A stretch of 64,000 bases of DNA, from the NCBI GenBank assembly GCA_937995655.1, contig CALKJI010000011.1:1-64000 (forward strand). Reading direction: 5' to 3'. Positions 31,569-39,507 of the stretch are shown piece after piece. The position numbers and the translations under genes were made by a program. The notes under the pieces are model-generated. The model saw only the letters and a list, made by a program, of their open reading frames with translations. It was not told where the DNA came from and did no database searches. The stretch comes from an uncultured Pseudothermotoga sp. (GTDB lineage: Bacteria; Thermotogota; Thermotogae; Thermotogales; DSM-5069). Position 1 is the first letter of the stretch. The number at the start of each line of letters is the position of its first letter.

Positions 31569-32846
31569 TTGAAAGCAAAGCGGATAAACATTTGGTGGAT
31601 CAGAAGAGATATTAGATTGATTGACAATGCCGTTTTGAACAAGGCAGCCCAAGAGGATGGTGAAATAGTCCCAGTTTACATCTTGGATCCATCAATGTTT
31701 TCCGGAAAGGGACAAGAAAAGAAGTTGTCTTTCATTTTCCGTCAACTTTGGGATTTGAACAGGCGACTTTCCACCTTTGGAACAGCAATTATGGTTTTTC
31801 ATGGAAAAGGTAGTGATGTTTTCAGATGGTTGAAATCGCAGTTCTCTCAGGCAAAGATTTTCACCAGTCTGGAACTTGGATATGTCGGTCAAGAGATGCT
31901 CAAAGAAGCTAAGAAGTATTTTCAGACTGAAACTGTCTTTGAAGGTTACCTTTTGAACTTTGACAGGGTACGATCGAAGGAAGGAAAGGTTTTCAGGACA
32001 TTCTTTCACTTCAAGAATGCGGCGTACAAGTGGATTGAAAAAATGGTTTGGAAGGAGGAAGAGAATCTACAGTTCAAATGGTACAGCCTTTCTACCCCCA
32101 GTCTTTACAGAATAGACGGTTATAGGATTGAAAAACTTGATTTTTCTTTAGAATCACTTGGCTTGCCAGAGATTCAGCTGTATCACGAAGGAGCTATAAG
32201 ATCCCCAGAAGAACTGTTAAAGCGGTTTGAAATGGTCTTGCCTAGCTATAATAAGTTGAGGGATTTTCCAGCAAAGAATGCCACTTCACTTTTGAGTGTT
32301 CACTTGCGTTACGGCACAATCTGTGTAAGAGAGGTTCTTAAGTGGGCTCTAGGCAAATCGAACTCTACAAAATTCATAGACGAGATTCTTTGGAGAGAAT
32401 TTTTTAGCTACCTTTTGTACCATTATCCAGAGAGTGAATTCCAAGATTTGAGAAGGAACTATGAAAGAATTTGGATTAAGCCATCTAGGGAAGATTTGAC
32501 TAAGCTTGAAAGTGCTCAATTTGGGATACCAATAATCGACGCAGGATTAAATCAACTTTATTTGGAAGGCTTTGTTCACAACCGAGTCAGGATGATAATA
32601 GCAAGTTACCTTACCAAAGATCTTCAATGGGATTGGAGAATAGGCGAAAGACTTTTTGCACAGCATTTGATAGACTATGATCCGGCTTTGAACGTAGGTA
32701 ATTGGCAGTGGAATGCAGGGGTTGGAGTCGATCCAAAATCGATGTATCGAAGATTCAACCCCTTTTTGCAGGCTGAAAAATTCGATCACGAAGGTGAATA
32801 CATAAACCGATATTTGAAAGCAGGTCCAGTAGGGTATCAGTCATGA
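31569..32846 (+). CDS. phrB: deoxyribodipyrimidine photolyase, short C-terminus
   Basis: 425-aa FAD photolyase that reverses cyclobutane pyrimidine dimers with blue light. The antenna-binding N-terminal domain starts INIWWIRRDIRLIDNAVL. The FAD/DNA domain has FIDEILWREFFSYLLY, FGIPIIDAGLNQLYLEGFVHNRVRMIIASYLTKDLQWDWRIGERLF and DYDPALNVGNWQWNAGVGVDPKSMYRRFNP. It ends at EYINRYLKAGPVGYQS, where class I enzymes normally continue with a VPEL-type tail of 20-40 residues, so the C-terminus is clipped or divergent. The TTG start lies 8 nt after GGAGG. It follows the ABC pair by 4 nt, so it is probably co-transcribed. Confidence 0.92.
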   Translation: MKAKRINIWWIRRDIRLIDNAVLNKAAQEDGEIVPVYILDPSMFSGKGQEKKLSFIFRQLWDLNRRLSTFGTAIMVFHGKGSDVFRWLKSQFSQAKIFTSLELGYVGQEMLKEAKKYFQTETVFEGYLLNFDRVRSKEGKVFRTFFHFKNAAYKWIEKMVWKEEENLQFKWYSLSTPSLYRIDGYRIEKLDFSLESLGLPEIQLYHEGAIRSPEELLKRFEMVLPSYNKLRDFPAKNATSLLSVHLRYGTICVREVLKWALGKSNSTKFIDEILWREFFSYLLYHYPESEFQDLRRNYERIWIKPSREDLTKLESAQFGIPIIDAGLNQLYLEGFVHNRVRMIIASYLTKDLQWDWRIGERLFAQHLIDYDPALNVGNWQWNAGVGVDPKSMYRRFNPFLQAEKFDHEGEYINRYLKAGPVGYQS

Positions 32847-33270
32847 ATCTGTAAAAGTAGATCGCGGAAAATGCGACTTTTGTACAAGATCGGCCATTGA
32901 CTATGATAACTCCAAAGTAATTTTGCATCATCTTTGATTTTACAAGATTGAGCCAAGTTTGACAATTCTGTCATCTTTTTGTTCTTCTTTCTTCCTTCTG
33001 TCTTACTCGTTGGGCATCGGACTAAAAGAAAGCGTGTTTTTCTAAGAACCGAGACAATCTTTATACGTCCAGCACCCAGCCGTAGGATTTGCAGAGACTT
33101 TACGGTCAAAGCCAAGCTGATTTACCAACTCAAAGGTCTTCCATGCTGCACTTTTATGGTATATGCAAGCTTTACCATATCGTAATGAAAAATAACCGTG
33201 ATGTAAAAAAGCAGTGTTACTATTTTGATGGAAATATTGAGTAATTTTTCACAATTAGGAGGTGAGATAT
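32847..33270. other. intergenic region upstream of tusA
   Basis: Contains a 7-bp inverted repeat (TATGGTA...TACCATA, near 33158-33182) and an AT-rich stretch that should hold the tusA promoter. I found no convincing -35/-10 pair, although TACTAT near 33221 could be a -10. A minus-strand frame at 32837-33115 has no SD and no recognisable domain. Confidence 0.45.
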
Positions 33271-33510
33271 ATGGCAAAGTATCAGGTTACAAAAACTTTG
33301 GATGTCAGAGGAGAGGTATGTCCAGTTCCAGATGTAGAGACCAGCAGAGCACTCAAGAGTATGAAATCTGGTGAGATCTTAGAGGTGTGGATTGACTACC
33401 CAATGTCCAAGGAAAGAATTCCAGAGACCGTGAAAAAGCTAGGACACGAACTGTTGGAGATTGAAGAAATTGGCCCAAGTGAATGGAAGCTTTACATCAA
33501 AGTAAAATGA
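33271..33510 (+). CDS. tusA: TusA-family sulfur carrier protein
   Basis: 79-aa single-domain TusA. It has the LDVRGEVCPVPDV motif with the persulfide-carrying C17 of the CPxP box, followed by DYPMSKERIPETVKKLGHELLEIEEIGPSEW. It accepts sulfane sulfur as a cysteine persulfide and hands it on. Start ATG at 33271, 7 nt after AGGAGGTG; the upstream in-frame GTG lies within the SD. First gene of tusA-yeeE-dsrE-dsrF-dsrH. Its TusA domain is clearly paralogous to the C-terminal domain of the regulator at 35626. Confidence 0.93.
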   Translation: MAKYQVTKTLDVRGEVCPVPDVETSRALKSMKSGEILEVWIDYPMSKERIPETVKKLGHELLEIEEIGPSEWKLYIKVK

Positions 33511-33525
33511 GGAGGTGCAGGCGCT

Positions 33526-34524
33526 GTGGTATGGACCGGGCTTGTGATCGGGATTATCTTCGGTGTAGTTCTTCAGCGTGGTAGGATTTGTTTTAACTCT
33601 GCCTTTAGAGATGTTTTGATTTTCAAAGACAATTATTTGATGAGGCTTGCAGCTTTGACCCTGGGTCTTCAGTCTATCACCTTTCTCATTTTCGCTCAGG
33701 CTGGTTTAATAAAACTTGCCCCAATGCCCTTAAATTGGATTGCTAACATCGTTGGTGGATATATCTTTGGCGTTGGAATGGTTCTTGGTGGCGGTTGTGC
33801 TTCTGGTGTAACCTATCGAATTGGTGAAGGTATGACGACAGCTTGGCTTGCAGCTTTGGCGTTCGGCTTGACAGCACGTGCCACAGAGGCAGGCTTGTTC
33901 TCAAAGTGGATAAGCTGGCTGCGCAGTTACAACGTCACAGTTCAGAATACAACGGCTCTCTATGCTCCCAAAACAGGCCCAAGTGTGGCAACCATTCTTG
34001 GAATAAGCCCATGGATCGTTTCAGTAATCTTTGCTTTGCTCATGCTTTGGTATGCCTTTGGTGTGAAGAACAAATCTCAAAGACCTTCCAGACTCAACTG
34101 GATTGCTGCCTCAGTTCTCATCGCAATATTGGCTCCCATCGCCTGGTGGGCAAGTGCTAAGGCTGGTAGGAATTACGGACTTGGAATCACTGGGGGATGG
34201 ACCAATATTATATCGGTTTACACGGGAAACGTAAAGTTGAGCTGGATAGGTGCAGAGGTTCTGGGAATAATCATTGGCTCAGCCATATCTGCAATCATTG
34301 GCAAAGAGTTCAAGCTTAGAATGCCGAAGGATCCAAAAACCTATGTCCAAGTTCTCGCTGGAGGTTTTCTGATGGGCTTTGGTGCGGCAACAGCTGGTGG
34401 ATGCAACATAGGCCACTTCTTAACTGGTGTACCGCTCTTGGCAATTTCGTCGATAGTGGCATCGGTTTTCTTCATTCTTGGGAACTGGACAATGGCTTGG
34501 TTTTTGTACGGTAGGCAGAAATGA
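33526..34524 (+). CDS. YeeE/YedE-family thiosulfate (sulfur) transporter
   Basis: 332-aa multi-helix membrane protein with two pseudo-repeats. Conserved cysteines: C22 (RICFNS), C91 (GGGCASG) and C293 (AGGCNIGH). These match the three cysteines I recall as lining the thiosulfate path in the Spirochaeta thermophila YeeE structure. It imports thiosulfate by relaying it across Cys thiols. GTG start after GGAGGTG. Between tusA and dsrE, so imported sulfur would feed the cytoplasmic relay directly. Confidence 0.9.
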   Translation: MVWTGLVIGIIFGVVLQRGRICFNSAFRDVLIFKDNYLMRLAALTLGLQSITFLIFAQAGLIKLAPMPLNWIANIVGGYIFGVGMVLGGGCASGVTYRIGEGMTTAWLAALAFGLTARATEAGLFSKWISWLRSYNVTVQNTTALYAPKTGPSVATILGISPWIVSVIFALLMLWYAFGVKNKSQRPSRLNWIAASVLIAILAPIAWWASAKAGRNYGLGITGGWTNIISVYTGNVKLSWIGAEVLGIIIGSAISAIIGKEFKLRMPKDPKTYVQVLAGGFLMGFGAATAGGCNIGHFLTGVPLLAISSIVASVFFILGNWTMAWFLYGRQK

Positions 34525-34546
34525 TCTTTCAGAAGGAGGAAAAAAT

Positions 34547-34903
34547 ATGAAACTAGGGATCCAGGTGATGGTGCCGCCTTATACTTACCAAGATCTTGAT
34601 ACTGCTATAAAGATTGCTGAGGCAGCACTTGAAAAAGGACACGAAGTAACTTTGTTTCTCTTTGCAGATTCTGTTATATGTACCAACAAAAACATTAAAC
34701 CACTTAGAATTGACAGAAATATTCCACAAAAATTGATAGAACTGATGAAGAACAATAAATTTCAAGTTCACATCTGTGGTATTTGCATGGATTACAGGGG
34801 TATAACCACAGAGATGATAATAGAAGGTTCAAAACCAAGCGGTCTTCCAGAACTTGCAAATCTTTTGTACACCTGTGACAGGTTTGTAAATCTAATGGCT
34901 TGA
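34547..34903 (+). CDS. DsrE/TusD-like sulfur relay protein
   Basis: 118-aa DsrE-fold protein. KLGIQVMVPPYTYQDLDTAIKIAEAALEKGHEVTLFLFADSV is the usual N-terminal half, and HICGICMDYRGI holds the likely acceptor cysteines. DsrE/TusD takes sulfur from TusA within a DsrEFH (TusBCD) complex. Start ATG at 34547, 6 nt after AGAAGGAGG; earlier in-frame codons overlap the transporter gene without an SD. No dsrC/tusE is present in the window. Confidence 0.88.
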   Translation: MKLGIQVMVPPYTYQDLDTAIKIAEAALEKGHEVTLFLFADSVICTNKNIKPLRIDRNIPQKLIELMKNNKFQVHICGICMDYRGITTEMIIEGSKPSGLPELANLLYTCDRFVNLMA

Positions 34904-34912
34904 GGTGGGACT

Positions 34913-35266
34913 ATGAAAAAACTGCTCTTTGTGGCTTATCAATCACCTGTTGGAAGTATCTGGGTCAATGAAACTTTTAGAACTGCTTTTGGTATGTATG
35001 GAGAAGATCTAGATCCGAGTGTTCTTTTGATCGATGAAGCTTCGGTTGCTCTATCAAAAGGTACGAAACCTGAAACGATTGGTTTGTTACCACTGTCGAT
35101 TTGCCATAAATACATCAAGAACTATGGGACAAAGGTATACACAATCAAACAACACCTTGAGAAATTCAAAGTGAAAGAACTAGATGAGAACTTCAAAGCA
35201 GAGATAATAGATGAGGCTGATTTGGCTGACTTTTTACACAGTTTCGACTACGTTATTTTTATGTGA
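34913..35266 (+). CDS. DsrF/TusC-like protein
   Basis: 117-aa DsrE-superfamily protein. KLLFVAYQSPVGSIWVNETFRTAFGMYGED is the TusC/DsrF opening, and the C-terminal half predicts alternating strands and helices ending FDYVIFM. It has a single cysteine (SICHKY), not at the DsrE acceptor position, so it is probably structural. Ten nt after dsrE. Confidence 0.85.
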   Translation: MKKLLFVAYQSPVGSIWVNETFRTAFGMYGEDLDPSVLLIDEASVALSKGTKPETIGLLPLSICHKYIKNYGTKVYTIKQHLEKFKVKELDENFKAEIIDEADLADFLHSFDYVIFM

Positions 35267-35277
35267 GGTGACTGAAA

Positions 35278-35541
35278 ATGGCATTAATACTCGTCAAGTA
35301 CGGAACGAACCATCCTGCTGAAAAGCTCAAAATAAGATCTGCCAGGGCTGAAGACAAAGTTGTTCTGGTACAAAACGGTGTTTATTGGGCTTTGGAAAGC
35401 CTTCAGACACCGGCAAAGGTTTATGCCATAAAAGATGATTTTTTTGCAAGGGGATATTCCCAGACAGATTCAAAAGTATCTTTGATCACTTACGGAGAAT
35501 TTATTGATTTGCTGGAAGGTGAGAAAAAGTTCATAGGATAG
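35278..35541 (+). CDS. DsrH/TusB-like protein
   Basis: 87-aa protein of the DsrH/TusB family (VVLVQNGVYWAL, VYAIKDDFFARGY, LITYGEFIDLL). It contains no cysteine, so in the presumed DsrEFH complex it would not itself carry sulfur. Last gene of the operon before the terminator; SD GTGAGGTGA. Confidence 0.82.
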   Translation: MALILVKYGTNHPAEKLKIRSARAEDKVVLVQNGVYWALESLQTPAKVYAIKDDFFARGYSQTDSKVSLITYGEFIDLLEGEKKFIG

Positions 35542-35586
35542 GGATATCAAAAAGTGGTAAAATGAAAATACAGAAAGGGTAATGAG

Positions 35587-35608
35587 CCGCGGCTAGTCCG
35601 CGGTTTTT
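35587..35608 (+). terminator. intrinsic terminator of the tus/dsr operon
   Basis: CCGCGG (35587-35592), loop CTAGT, CCGCGG (35598-35603), then TTTTTG. It sits between dsrH and the ArsR-TusA gene, 18 nt before the latter's start. A TAAAAT at 35558-35563 could be a -10 for the downstream gene, which would make this an attenuator. Confidence 0.82.
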
Positions 35609-35625
35609 GTAAAAGGGGAATTTTT

Positions 35626-36201
35626 ATGAAGCGCAGTAAAGATGTACTGACCATTTTCAAGATTTTGTCGAACCAGACAAGGCTCGACATTCTGATGCTT
35701 TTGAGAGACAGTTGTCTCACAGCTTCAGAGGTGGCTGAAAAGTTGGGAATAGATCTTTCAACTGCCTACAGATATTTGAACCAAATGGTTGAGAATGGCA
35801 TACTCAGTGTCATTAAGGCTCCGAATGGAGATAGGTTTGATTTTTCTTCCATTCATATACTCAAAATACTCGAAGAGGCTGTGGGATTGATATACGACAT
35901 GGACGGAAGAGAAAACCTCAAAGCCAACAGTTTCGTAGTCCAAGAGATCGACAAAGTATCTGAGCCGAAGAGATTTGTTGATATGCGTGGTCAGATATGT
36001 CCTGTGCCAGAAATCATGACCAGGAAGGAATTGGCCAAGCTCAAACCTGGTGAGACACTGGTTGTCATCTGTGACTACCCGCTCTCAAAAGAGAGAATCA
36101 CAAGCTTTGCATCAAGAGAAGGCTACACAGTAAAGGTCGAAGAAATTGGACCAATCTCGAAAATCTATATACAAAGATCAGCGCGTGACGTTGAAAAGTA
36201 G
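35626..36201 (+). CDS. ArsR-type HTH fused to a TusA domain, putative persulfide-sensing regulator
   Basis: 191 aa in two parts. Residues 1-75 form a winged HTH of the ArsR group (FKILSNQTRLDILMLLRDSCLTASEVAEKLGIDLSTAYRYLNQMVENGIL...). A helical linker (about 76-115) follows, then a full TusA domain (about 117-186) with the persulfide cysteine intact (MRGQICPVPEI, C125). The TusA part shares CPVP, DYP-x-SKERI and EEIGP with the neighbouring TusA, pointing to domain duplication. I infer that DNA binding responds to persulfide loading of C125 by the same sulfur relay. C30 in the HTH is a possible partner thiol. Alternatives: a constitutive repressor using TusA only for dimerisation. SD AAAAGGGGAA. 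Confidence 0.88.
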   Translation: MKRSKDVLTIFKILSNQTRLDILMLLRDSCLTASEVAEKLGIDLSTAYRYLNQMVENGILSVIKAPNGDRFDFSSIHILKILEEAVGLIYDMDGRENLKANSFVVQEIDKVSEPKRFVDMRGQICPVPEIMTRKELAKLKPGETLVVICDYPLSKERITSFASREGYTVKVEEIGPISKIYIQRSARDVEK

Positions 36202-36602
36202 GAACAAGAGACCTTTTTCATGGATACAGATATTTTCATTGCACAGGCCTTTTTCTTGTGACTTTACAAGCACATATATATTTTCTACCTTATGATGGGA
36301 CAAAAGGGTCGAATGGTGCATAAAAAACAATGAAGCAGGTTGTGATCTTTAGCCGCCTCTGATGTGTTATTGTCCTTGGAAAGTTCGATCTCTTTTTTGC
36401 TGATAAAATATTTCAGTATTTTGCACGTATGGGAAGTTACTAAAGATTTAACCTGACCTTTGGTGATGTGGGCAAGATGGGTATGAAGGGGCTTGCAGCA
36501 AATTTAGATGAGATATGTTTAATTTTCGTCAGATTCTAAGAAACCCTTTGGTATAATCAAGTAATGTAATAATACTTTTATCTCATTAGTGGAGGTGTTG
36601 TT
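36202..36602 (+). promoter_or_regulatory. intergenic region with promoter of the TRAP operon
   Basis: The region shows no gene. Near its end is an extended -10, TGGTATAAT (36549-36557), about 45 nt before the GTG of the TAXI receptor, with no clear -35. The rest is AT-rich and I cannot assign anything to it. Confidence 0.5.
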
Positions 36603-37571
36603 GTGAAGGTCAAAGTAGTCCTACTGCTGCTGTTTATTCTTTCAACCCTCATTTTTGCTCAGACAAAGTGGCCCAGCCAGATTAGGTTAGTTTCTGGTCC
36701 ATCCGGAGGAACTTGGTTTGCACTGGGTGGTACATTGGCCAACATATGGACACAGGATGTCGTTCAGACAACAAGTGGTACTGGTGGCGGAACAAGCAAC
36801 ATAGTTGTTATATCTAGAGGTCAGGCCGATGTTGGCTTGACTACTCTGGCGATCTTCAACGCCGCACTCAAGGGTATTGGCCCATTTGCACCAAATCCCG
36901 TCAAGGGAACCGTTTTGTTTGCTAACCTCTATAGACAATACACATATTTCATAATGAGGAAAGATTTTGCATTAAAGTATGGTGTGAAGAGCTTGAAAGA
37001 CATAGTGGAAAAGAAATTGCCTATAAGGTTTGCCACCCTCACACCTGGTACAGCTAGCGAATACGTTATCAGAACTATTTTTGAGGCTGGGTATGGTATT
37101 AACTGGGAAACAATTAGATCTTGGCGTGGAAGAGTTGAGTTTGCTTCTTACAGTGATGGAGCAAATTTGCTCGCAGACAATAACATCGATTGTTTTGCAT
37201 TTCAAATCAGCCGCGTAGCATCTGTAATAATGGACATTGAAAGTAGGGTTGACGTCGTTTTACTACCCGTTGATGACGAAGCAATTGAGAAAGTTGCAGC
37301 GGTGTTGGGAACAAAGAAATTCTTCATTGAACCTGGAATTTACAAATCTGTGACCGAGCCAGTGCAAACGGTTGGGGATTACACATGTCTTGTTATAAGA
37401 GAAACATTGCCCGAGGATCTTGTGTACAAACTTGCAGAATCTCTATGGAAGAGGAAGGAAGAAATATCGAAAGCTTTCGTAGATATGGCTGAACTCAATG
37501 CCGAAGAAGCTGTCTTTGAAGGTGTCTTAGCGCATTCTGGTGCAGCTAAGTTCTGGACATCGATAAAGTGA
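36603..37571 (+). CDS. TAXI-family TRAP transporter solute receptor
   Basis: 322-aa periplasmic receptor with a signal peptide (LLLLFILSTLIFAQ). TAXI hallmarks: IRLVSGPSGGTWFALGGTLANIW, GGGTSNIVVISRGQADVGLTT and TPGTASEYVIRTIFEAGYG. It binds an organic acid or amino acid and delivers it to the fused TRAP permease downstream, driven by an ion gradient. GTG start with SD GGAGGTG. Ligand unknown; glutamate-like or dicarboxylate ligands are the family precedent. Confidence 0.92.
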   Translation: MKVKVVLLLLFILSTLIFAQTKWPSQIRLVSGPSGGTWFALGGTLANIWTQDVVQTTSGTGGGTSNIVVISRGQADVGLTTLAIFNAALKGIGPFAPNPVKGTVLFANLYRQYTYFIMRKDFALKYGVKSLKDIVEKKLPIRFATLTPGTASEYVIRTIFEAGYGINWETIRSWRGRVEFASYSDGANLLADNNIDCFAFQISRVASVIMDIESRVDVVLLPVDDEAIEKVAAVLGTKKFFIEPGIYKSVTEPVQTVGDYTCLVIRETLPEDLVYKLAESLWKRKEEISKAFVDMAELNAEEAVFEGVLAHSGAAKFWTSIK

Positions 37572-37587
37572 ACCCTTTTAATCTTGA

Positions 37588-37618
37588 CTCTCCTGGTGAT
37601 CCGTGGTTGCCAGGAGAG
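37588..37618 (+). terminator. hairpin between TAXI receptor and TRAP permease genes
   Basis: CTCTCCTGG (37588-37596) pairs perfectly with CCAGGAGAG (37610-37618) around a 13-nt loop, followed by ATTTTTAT. Its position after the binding-protein gene matches the hairpins after malE and after both Opp-type binding-protein genes that head operons. Confidence 0.75.
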
Positions 37619-37641
37619 ATTTTTATATCGGAGGGACACCA

Positions 37642-39507
37642 ATGAGATCTTTAAAGGGTTGGCCGTATTACATCGGTTATTTTTCACTAATTGCACTAGG
37701 TGTTTTTCACCTTTATACTGCAATCTTTGGTACATTTGAAGCTTATTTACAGAGAAATATTCACCTACTGTTCGCGTTACCCCTCGTTTATATTTATTTT
37801 CCCTTTTCAAAAAAAGGTCCGAAAGATAAGGTACCTTGGTATGACTGGCTACTGTGTATTATGTCCTCATTGCCATCTTTGTATGCGGTTTTCAATTATC
37901 AGCGCATAATTTACAGGATGGTGCAAGTTGAAATCGTTCGAACTGAAGAACTGCTCCTTGGTACGATCCTCGTAGTTACCCTTCTTGAAGCAGCACGAAG
38001 AGTCGTTGGACTTGGTCTTACTATTCTAGCTTCTGCGATGATATTCTATATGTACTTTGGTTATCTATTACCTGGTGATTGGAGAGGCATGTATGTTCCA
38101 TTTGACAGAATCATTGAACACCTTTATCTGACAGGAGAAGGTATTTTCTCAACACCGCTTGGTGTTTCTGCAACATTCGTTATCATAATGCTTATTTTTG
38201 GGGGTTTCCTTGAAAAAAGTGGTACGGGAGATTATTTTATGGATCTGTCAAAAGCCGTGGCTGGGAAGGCAGCTGGTGGACCTGCTAAAATAGCCGTCAT
38301 AAGTTCGGGTTTGTTTGGTAGCATATCAGGTTCAGCTGTTGCAAACGTTTATGCTACGGGGACCTTTACCATACCAATGATGAAACAGCTAGGTTTTTCG
38401 AATGCCTTTGCCGGAGCTGTAGAAGCAGTTGCAAGTTCGGGTGGTCAGATAATGCCTCCAGTCATGGGAGCTGCCGCATTTATCATGGCATCTTTTTTGG
38501 GAATTCCGTACAGTAGTATCGTCGTAGCAGGTATCGTACCAGCTTTGCTTTATTACATAGGGGTCTACGCAATGGTTGATGCAAGGGCAAAAAAACTCGG
38601 TTTAAAAGGCTTGACGAGTGAACAGATACCTTCCATCGGTGATGTTCTCAAGAAGCTGTACATAATCATCCCCGTTGTTGTTTTCGTATTGATGATTCTT
38701 CGTGGGAACACACCTATGAGATCGGCAACTGTAGGCATTCTTGTTTGCTGGTTTTTGAGTTTGCTGAACAAAGGTAAAAGAATGGGACCTCTTCAAATAA
38801 TTGATGCGATCTATCTTGGAACAAAGAATGTTTTTGTCGTAGCCATAGCTTGTGCTGCAGCTGGTATCGTCGTTGGTGCAGTGAGCTTGACAGGCGTTGG
38901 ATTCAAAATAGCAAGTTCGATTTTCTCACTGGCTGGGAACAACAGCTTTATGGCATTAGTAATGGTTGCAGTACTTTCCTTGATACTGGGAATGGGTCTT
39001 CCAACCACAGCTGCATACATCGTGGCATCAGCTTTAGCTGTTCCAGCATTGATAAAACTTGGATTTTTGCCCTTATCATCGCACATGTTTGTCTTCTATT
39101 TCGCAGTATTTTCGGCGATAACACCACCTGTTGCTTTGGCTGCTTATGCGGCTAGTTCTATAAGTGGTGCTACACCAAATGAGACAGGCTTTCAGGCTCT
39201 GAGATTGGGTATTGTGGCAATTGTGTTACCCTTCGCCTTTTGTTTTGATAAATCTTTTCTTTTGCAGTCAAATCCGTGGTTAAATTTATTTTCACTACTC
39301 TCTGGTATATGTGCTGCGATATTTTTGGGCACGGGTATAGAAGGGTATCTACGCGGAAATATAGGAATTGTTTTTCGTTCGGGGCTTGTGATTTTTGGTT
39401 TGCTCTCACTTTGGCCTCAGATATTTGTTCGAATTATTGCGATACTAATCGGTTTCGCTACAATGACATATCTTTACCTTGTACAAAAAGATCAAACCGT
39501 CTCCTAA
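37642..39507 (+). CDS. TRAP transporter fused permease (4TM+12TM)
   Basis: 621-aa fused small and large TRAP membrane subunits. The small-subunit region has about four helices up to residue 145. The large subunit contains FGGFLEKSGTGDYFMDLSKAVAGKAAGGPAKIAVISSGLFGSISGSAVANVYATGTFTIPMM and GMGLPTTAAYIVASALAVPALIKLG, typical of TAXI-TRAP permeases. Additional helices lie at the C-terminus. Start ATG at 37642 after GGAGGG; the longer upstream frame overlaps the hairpin. Confidence 0.92.
   Translation: MRSLKGWPYYIGYFSLIALGVFHLYTAIFGTFEAYLQRNIHLLFALPLVYIYFPFSKKGPKDKVPWYDWLLCIMSSLPSLYAVFNYQRIIYRMVQVEIVRTEELLLGTILVVTLLEAARRVVGLGLTILASAMIFYMYFGYLLPGDWRGMYVPFDRIIEHLYLTGEGIFSTPLGVSATFVIIMLIFGGFLEKSGTGDYFMDLSKAVAGKAAGGPAKIAVISSGLFGSISGSAVANVYATGTFTIPMMKQLGFSNAFAGAVEAVASSGGQIMPPVMGAAAFIMASFLGIPYSSIVVAGIVPALLYYIGVYAMVDARAKKLGLKGLTSEQIPSIGDVLKKLYIIIPVVVFVLMILRGNTPMRSATVGILVCWFLSLLNKGKRMGPLQIIDAIYLGTKNVFVVAIACAAAGIVVGAVSLTGVGFKIASSIFSLAGNNSFMALVMVAVLSLILGMGLPTTAAYIVASALAVPALIKLGFLPLSSHMFVFYFAVFSAITPPVALAAYAASSISGATPNETGFQALRLGIVAIVLPFAFCFDKSFLLQSNPWLNLFSLLSGICAAIFLGTGIEGYLRGNIGIVFRSGLVIFGLLSLWPQIFVRIIAILIGFATMTYLYLVQKDQTVS

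Follow-up and report, generated by a model that had tools for sequence, protein, structure and literature searches.

CstR/CsoR-type persulfide sensors, which occur with CstA (rhodanese-TusA), are a known case of sulfane-sulfur control of an operon encoding a TusA-domain protein. The ArsR-type regulators SoxR, sHdrR, SqrR and BigR sense through two cysteines (PMC12423496), and sulfur transfer from TusA to regulators of this type has been posed as an open question for SoxR and sHdrR (PMC11582611). The sulfur carrier StYeeD binds the transporter YeeE with a dissociation constant (KD) of 1.6 uM, more weakly with thiosulfate; the residues required for binding include E15, V16, C17, D42, Y43, E48 and R49, and C17 reacts with thiosulfate and decomposes it (PMC11073785). 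Here we analyzed a 64,000-nt stretch (the window; contig CALKJI010000011.1, positions 1 to 64,000) from the 2.11-Mb genome of an uncultured Pseudothermotoga sp., a thermophilic, fermenting member of the Thermotogota. The stretch encodes a putative regulator of 191 aa that joins an ArsR-fold winged helix-turn-helix (wHTH) to a TusA domain. Its gene (35626 to 36201, forward strand) lies behind tusA, tsuA, dsrE, dsrF and dsrH. The fusion is probably a dedicated local regulator that responds to thiosulfate or sulfane sulfur and uses its carrier domain as the sensor.

The fusion resembles SqrR, BigR, SoxR and sHdrR in its ArsR fold, its linkage to sulfur genes and a YeeE-type transport gene, and its proposed sulfane-sulfur input (PMC12423496, PMC11582611). 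It differs from them in that they use two cysteines of the wHTH protein, whereas the fusion has one invariant cysteine in the carrier domain and an activator-like site. With TsuB/YeeD and TM0983 it shares the CPxP cysteine, the DYPxSxER motif and an adjacent tsuA gene, but those proteins are free carriers or enzymes, while the fused domain is tied to a DNA-binding domain and falls below the NCBIfam TsuB cut-off. CstR/CsoR have another DNA-binding fold, and in their system it is the enzyme and not the regulator that carries the TusA domain. We found no description of an HTH-TusA regulator in the open-access literature searched, subscription papers being outside that search. Sulfur-sensing ArsR-fold regulators are a known kind, and the carrier-domain sensor design appears to be undescribed in that literature.

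Domain architecture and cysteines of the fusion protein

The protein consists of a wHTH (residues 7-92), a linker (93-115) and a TusA domain (116-184) that contains C125. PF01206 matched residues 117-184 with 71 bits (cut-off 28.6), and HTH_20 (41 bits) and HTH_5 (35 bits) matched residues 14-62, both above their cut-offs. Having both the PF01206 match and the CPxP cysteine, the fusion belongs to the TusA family; PF01206 matches only two places in its own genome, of which the fusion is one. An earlier note, made from the letters of this DNA alone, had proposed an ArsR-type HTH joined to a TusA domain with an intact CPVP box at C125. The family searches confirmed this, and the motifs that it listed as common to the fused and free TusA (CPVP, DYP-x-SKERI and EEIGP) are real.

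We modeled the fusion with AlphaFold2 from 12 sequences (mean predicted local distance difference test score 78.7, predicted template modeling score 0.56), and the model does not fix the relative placement of the domains. It has wHTH helices at 7-14, 17-28, 33-40 and 44-56, a wing at 60-73 and a further helix at 76-92, followed by disordered residues 95-109 and a TusA fold at 116-183. Foldseek returned SmtB, CzrA and HlyU for the N-terminal part (TM_t 0.78-0.87 for CzrA and SmtB); its matches to the C-terminal part were TusA and the TsuA-TsuB complex. As modeled, the N-terminal domain is of the ArsR/SmtB family, with a winged helix and a C-terminal dimerization helix. A metalloregulator was ruled out, as the sequence contains no CxC and scores 32.9 bits with NF033788 (cut-off 55).

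C125 is the only invariant cysteine, being present in all 33 aligned fusions. C30, in the HTH, occurs in 19 of the 33, C149, directly before the DYP motif, in seven including that of the window, and the wHTH has no second conserved cysteine. Therefore, the two-cysteine chemistry of SoxR, sHdrR, SqrR and BigR is unavailable to the fusion family as a whole. A dithiol sensor of the SqrR/BigR/SoxR type was ruled out on this ground, the BigR model giving 13 vs 155 bits, and the difference from the paired HTH thiols of SqrR/BigR that had been pointed out earlier holds.

Every aligned fusion keeps D150, Y151, E156 and R157 besides C125, and these five residues correspond to D42, Y43, E48, R49 and, for C125, C17 of StYeeD. 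The fused domain looks TsuB-like, that is, thiosulfate-cleaving and transporter-docking, with a score of 25 bits against NCBIfam TsuB (cut-off 147.5), which the free TusA of the operon also misses at 36 bits. The direct input may therefore be thiosulfate or the transporter and not the general sulfane-sulfur load. The same residues would allow the TusA domain to hold the fusion on membrane TsuA until thiosulfate at C125 releases it, with TsuA as a co-sensor. The weakening of StYeeD-YeeE binding by thiosulfate (PMC11073785) is in line with such docking, as is SoxT1B, a YeeE-like transporter that acts as a signaling unit for SoxR (PMC11582611). We consider it doubtful, since the conserved residues may instead serve thiosulfate chemistry or the TusA fold, the window has Q123 at the position of E15, which varies among the fusions, as does that of V16, free TsuB would compete for TsuA, and an independently formed fusion (L168, below) lacks DYPxSxER. 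It is likewise only a tentative idea that the fusion founds a new class of one-component regulators, in which protein-borne sulfur on a carrier, and neither a dithiol nor a small-molecule ligand, would be the signal, TsuA the co-sensor, and docking, loading and release would lead to operon activation.

Distribution and gene linkage

A full-length or near full-length fusion was found in 37 of 103 Thermotogota genomes, so that a single-genome oddity was rejected. The fusion gene is nearly always found with tusA-tsuA-dsrE-dsrF-dsrH, at the operon end, and is either codirectional or convergent. The search for fusions and their neighborhoods that the earlier note had proposed thus upheld the linkage to sulfur genes, and the opposite case, a fusion unlinked to them, fails. 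The clear exception is G046, where the fusion is on a separate contig beside genes for dihydrolipoyl dehydrogenase and GcvH; G078 is split across contigs. Four genomes (G012, G013, G097 and G098) have a similar tusA without a canonical fusion. At the operon head, two genomes have a divergent fusion of shorter length (L061:5587-6111 and L062:998-1483). In a TusA tree, the fused domains of 31 carriers cluster apart from the free TusAs (SH-aLRT 88, in a weak tree of few columns), and those of L061 and L062 are separate from this group.

In many relatives, genes for a GcvH-like lipoyl protein and dihydrolipoyl dehydrogenase are in or beside the operon (L054:7469-9193, L055:7045-8777, L064:7948-9746 and L049:5498-7824). 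The operon-associated GcvH is usually a second copy, and the genome of the window has a single gcvH, located elsewhere. With these proteins, relayed sulfur may be reduced along a lipoyl-linked pathway driven by NADH. The arrangement recalls sHdr-LbpA, but shdr was not seen nearby.

Beyond Thermotogota the fusion is rare. A scan of the contig collection gave free TusA only, and about 1,150 genomes sampled from five other phyla (with some overlap) gave one true fusion, L168. The scan patterns were drawn from the TusA domain of the window fusion's subfamily and may therefore miss distant fusions. L168 is an ArsR-TusA fusion with a TusA domain of a different subfamily, and is divergent from dsrE-dsrF-dsrH-gcvH-lplA and two radical-SAM genes, which we take by resemblance to be LipS1/LipS2-like. 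The L168 fusion is independent of the Thermotogota one; ArsR and TusA have therefore been joined at least twice, each time in a sulfur-relay cluster. The cluster at this locus (L168:2715-7960) and those of its relatives L203-L205 are of the dsrEFH type, have ArsR or ArsR-TusA at the head and come from outside the phylum Thermotogota. L203 and L204 read arsR-dsrE-dsrF-(dsrH)-tusA-gcvH-lplA and L205 reads arsR-dsrE-dsrF-dsrH-tusA, so that ArsR and TusA share a sulfur cluster there as separate proteins but are fused in L168. L169 (Chloroflexota) was rejected as a fusion because its ArsR and TusA are two adjacent genes; the sulfur cluster around them also contains DsrE-like, TusA and TsuA genes.

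A conserved candidate operator upstream of tusA

Upstream of tusA we found a conserved candidate operator, AGCTTTACCATATCGTAATGA (33168-33188, forward strand), with the core TTTACCATATCGTAA at 33171-33185 and a TTAC-N6-GTAA dyad. Its consensus across relatives is 15 bp, TTTACCAwRTYGTAA. The sequence TTTACCANNTNGTAA occurs once in the 2.1-Mb genome; it lies upstream of tusA in ten nearest-family genomes (this one included), with two further matches among all ten. We built a position weight matrix (PWM) from twelve near sites, with leave-one-out scoring and a threshold of p<0.05. It matched in 25 of 28 canonical carriers, genera outside the training set included, whereas all seven genomes that had either no fusion or a divergent one lacked a match. 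Four genomes that we take to be the genus Thermotoga (G090-G093) carry both fusion and operator. Where the fusion is unlinked to the operon (G046), the site stands before both the operon and the distant fusion gene (p=0.003 each). This double site, a correlation only, is the best evidence that the operator belongs to the fusion protein, and we infer that the fusion binds it.

Within the window, the site at 33168-33188 is the sole strong PWM match, and the stretch directly upstream of 35626 gave no significant match. Of the two operators suggested earlier, the one upstream of 33271 is thus borne out by a conserved candidate, and the one upstream of 35626 has no convincing counterpart in the window. 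A generic leader element is unlikely, as the motif is unique in the genome and absent without a canonical fusion, in seven genomes that are few and related. An Rfam search of 32800-36700 gave no match. There is a weaker TTTATCATTCTG-like copy downstream of the operator in Kosmotogaceae-type loci (L043-L045, L071 and L072); this second copy overlaps the -10, and may represent either a tandem site or the promoter.

In G028 (L066:6755-7429), only a TusA-domain remnant is left of the fusion, directly behind tusA; the HTH and tsuA-dsrEFH are gone, and the upstream site is retained, either by natural deletion or as an assembly artefact. This locus, and the faster evolution of fused than of free TusA, would suit a redundant or decaying TusA domain on a generic HTH, with another protein exerting thiosulfate control at the TTTACCA site. 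We regard this as improbable, because C125 and the DYPxSxER core vary little or not at all among Thermotogota fusions, the site tracks the fusion where it is unlinked, and no other HTH gene was seen consistently accompanying the operon.

Promoter geometry and a Rex-like site

A candidate -10 box, TACTAT (33218-33223, forward strand), lies 32 bp after the operator, with no recognizable -35. The best -10 hexamer is 31-33 bp after the operator in 20 of 26 upstream regions, most of them without a -35, and a consensus promoter scan found no sigma-70 promoter on the forward strand of the tusA upstream region. The usual layout of an activated promoter is one that has no -35 and has its site about 45-60 bp ahead of the transcript start. 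Because the operator sits upstream of a -10 mostly without a -35, its placement points to activation, which we judge somewhat likelier than simple de-repression.

If the fusion were instead a classical repressor, it would be bound without sulfur and released on C125 persulfidation, as SqrR, SoxR and sHdrR are, the fused carrier replacing the dithiol. Its ArsR fold and the fact that every cited ArsR-type sulfur sensor represses (PMC12423496) argue for this. The operator, however, lies farther upstream than a -35 would, with a constant 32-33 bp to a -10 that mostly has no -35. This fits activation better, and we hold repression to be possible but less probable. The repressor and docking readings are variants of how the same regulator would act, so that our confidences in them are not mutually exclusive and should not be added up to one.

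Just before the ribosome-binding site, a Rex-like operator, TTGAGTAATTTTTCACAA (33237-33254, forward strand), matches TTGTGAANNNNTTCACAA at 12 of 14 positions (p=0.002). It resembles the Thermotoga maritima Rex site ATTTGAGAAATTTATCACAAAA (PMC8836258). The palindrome is downstream of the -10 and overlaps the predicted transcript start, and Rex-type genes are present in the genome. The motif was found at p<0.05 in 28 of 37 upstream regions; TGTGA-N6-TCACA also recalls CRP/FNR sites.

Organization of the operon and its surroundings

All genes of the operon are on the forward strand. The free sulfur carrier tusA (tsuB-like; 33271-33510) has 85 bits with PF01206. Its nearest PDB relative is TM0983 (1jdq, E 1e-45), so that it is nearly TM0983 itself, and it is also near the TsuB half of the Spirochaeta TsuA-TsuB complex (8j4c, E 5e-32). 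The YeeE-type thiosulfate transporter gene tsuA (33526-34524) scores 548 bits with NCBIfam TsuA (NF052577, cut-off 400). The dsrE/tusD-like gene (34547-34903; PF02635, 84.5 bits) is a clear assignment, as is dsrH/tusB (35278-35541), which matched PF04077 (48 bits) and TIGR03011 (53.9, over a cut-off of 49.2). The weakest call is the dsrF/tusC-like gene (34913-35266), with 21.0 bits to PF02635, below the cut-off of 22.7, and E 1e-6 with TusC models.

The space from dsrH to the fusion gene holds a GC-rich hairpin followed by a U-run (35584-35606, forward strand), a candidate terminator or attenuator. It has -14 kcal/mol and a z of -1.25, not significantly stable alone; comparable hairpins are at the equivalent place in many carriers (z -0.5 to -3.5). 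A candidate -10 of the regulator's own promoter (TGG-TAAAAT, 35558-35563, forward strand) was picked by eye in the nearest relatives. Because the hairpin and the -10-like box separate dsrH from the fusion gene in the nearest relatives, the fusion gene may be a partly insulated unit and not simply the last one of the operon. The gene order given in the earlier note stands.

After the fusion gene, the window has TRAP-type transporter genes (an NMT1-like binding protein and a DctM membrane protein) at 36603-39507; they were not found in relatives' loci searched with the window proteins.

Proposed regulation and its significance

We propose that the fusion is a one-component regulator dedicated to the adjacent thiosulfate-uptake and sulfur-relay operon. 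Its ArsR-type winged helix would bind TTTACCA-NN-TCGTAA, about 45-60 bp upstream of the tusA-tsuA-dsrE-dsrF-dsrH transcript start. The TusA domain would be the sensor, with C125 loaded directly from thiosulfate, as in the related TsuB/YeeD, or alternatively from free TusA or DsrEFH, and the sulfur-loaded form would turn the promoter on. Rex at the transcript-start site may add NADH/NAD+ control; with both inputs, the operon would therefore be switched on by thiosulfate in an over-reduced cell. In favor of the proposal, yeeE of the homologous T. maritima unit (yeeE/dsrE/tusA) is induced 42.6-fold by thiosulfate, and only slightly by S0 (PMC9431562). The idea of the earlier note, a regulator read by the sulfur-trafficking machinery through a C125 persulfide that would alter DNA binding, is partly supported.

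Several points weigh against this proposal. ArsR-fold proteins are usually repressors. Co-occurrence of operator and fusion gives about 2e-5 in Fisher's test, a hand calculation over related genomes, in which the independent events are fewer. Three canonical carriers (L045, L047 and L054) have an operator p>0.05, and the divergent fusions L061 and L062 are without the site. Finally, the thiosulfate response of T. maritima is that of a relative, in a study that tested no regulator.

The fusion unites donor and regulator in one chain, so that a single purified protein and a single DNA fragment suffice for a test of sulfur transfer. With its predicted operator, it is also a concrete candidate for explaining the so far unexplained induction by thiosulfate (42.6-fold) in T. 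maritima, which serves as a model of hydrogen production. If our reading is true, cells may sense how much thiosulfate is available directly by way of a sulfur carrier.

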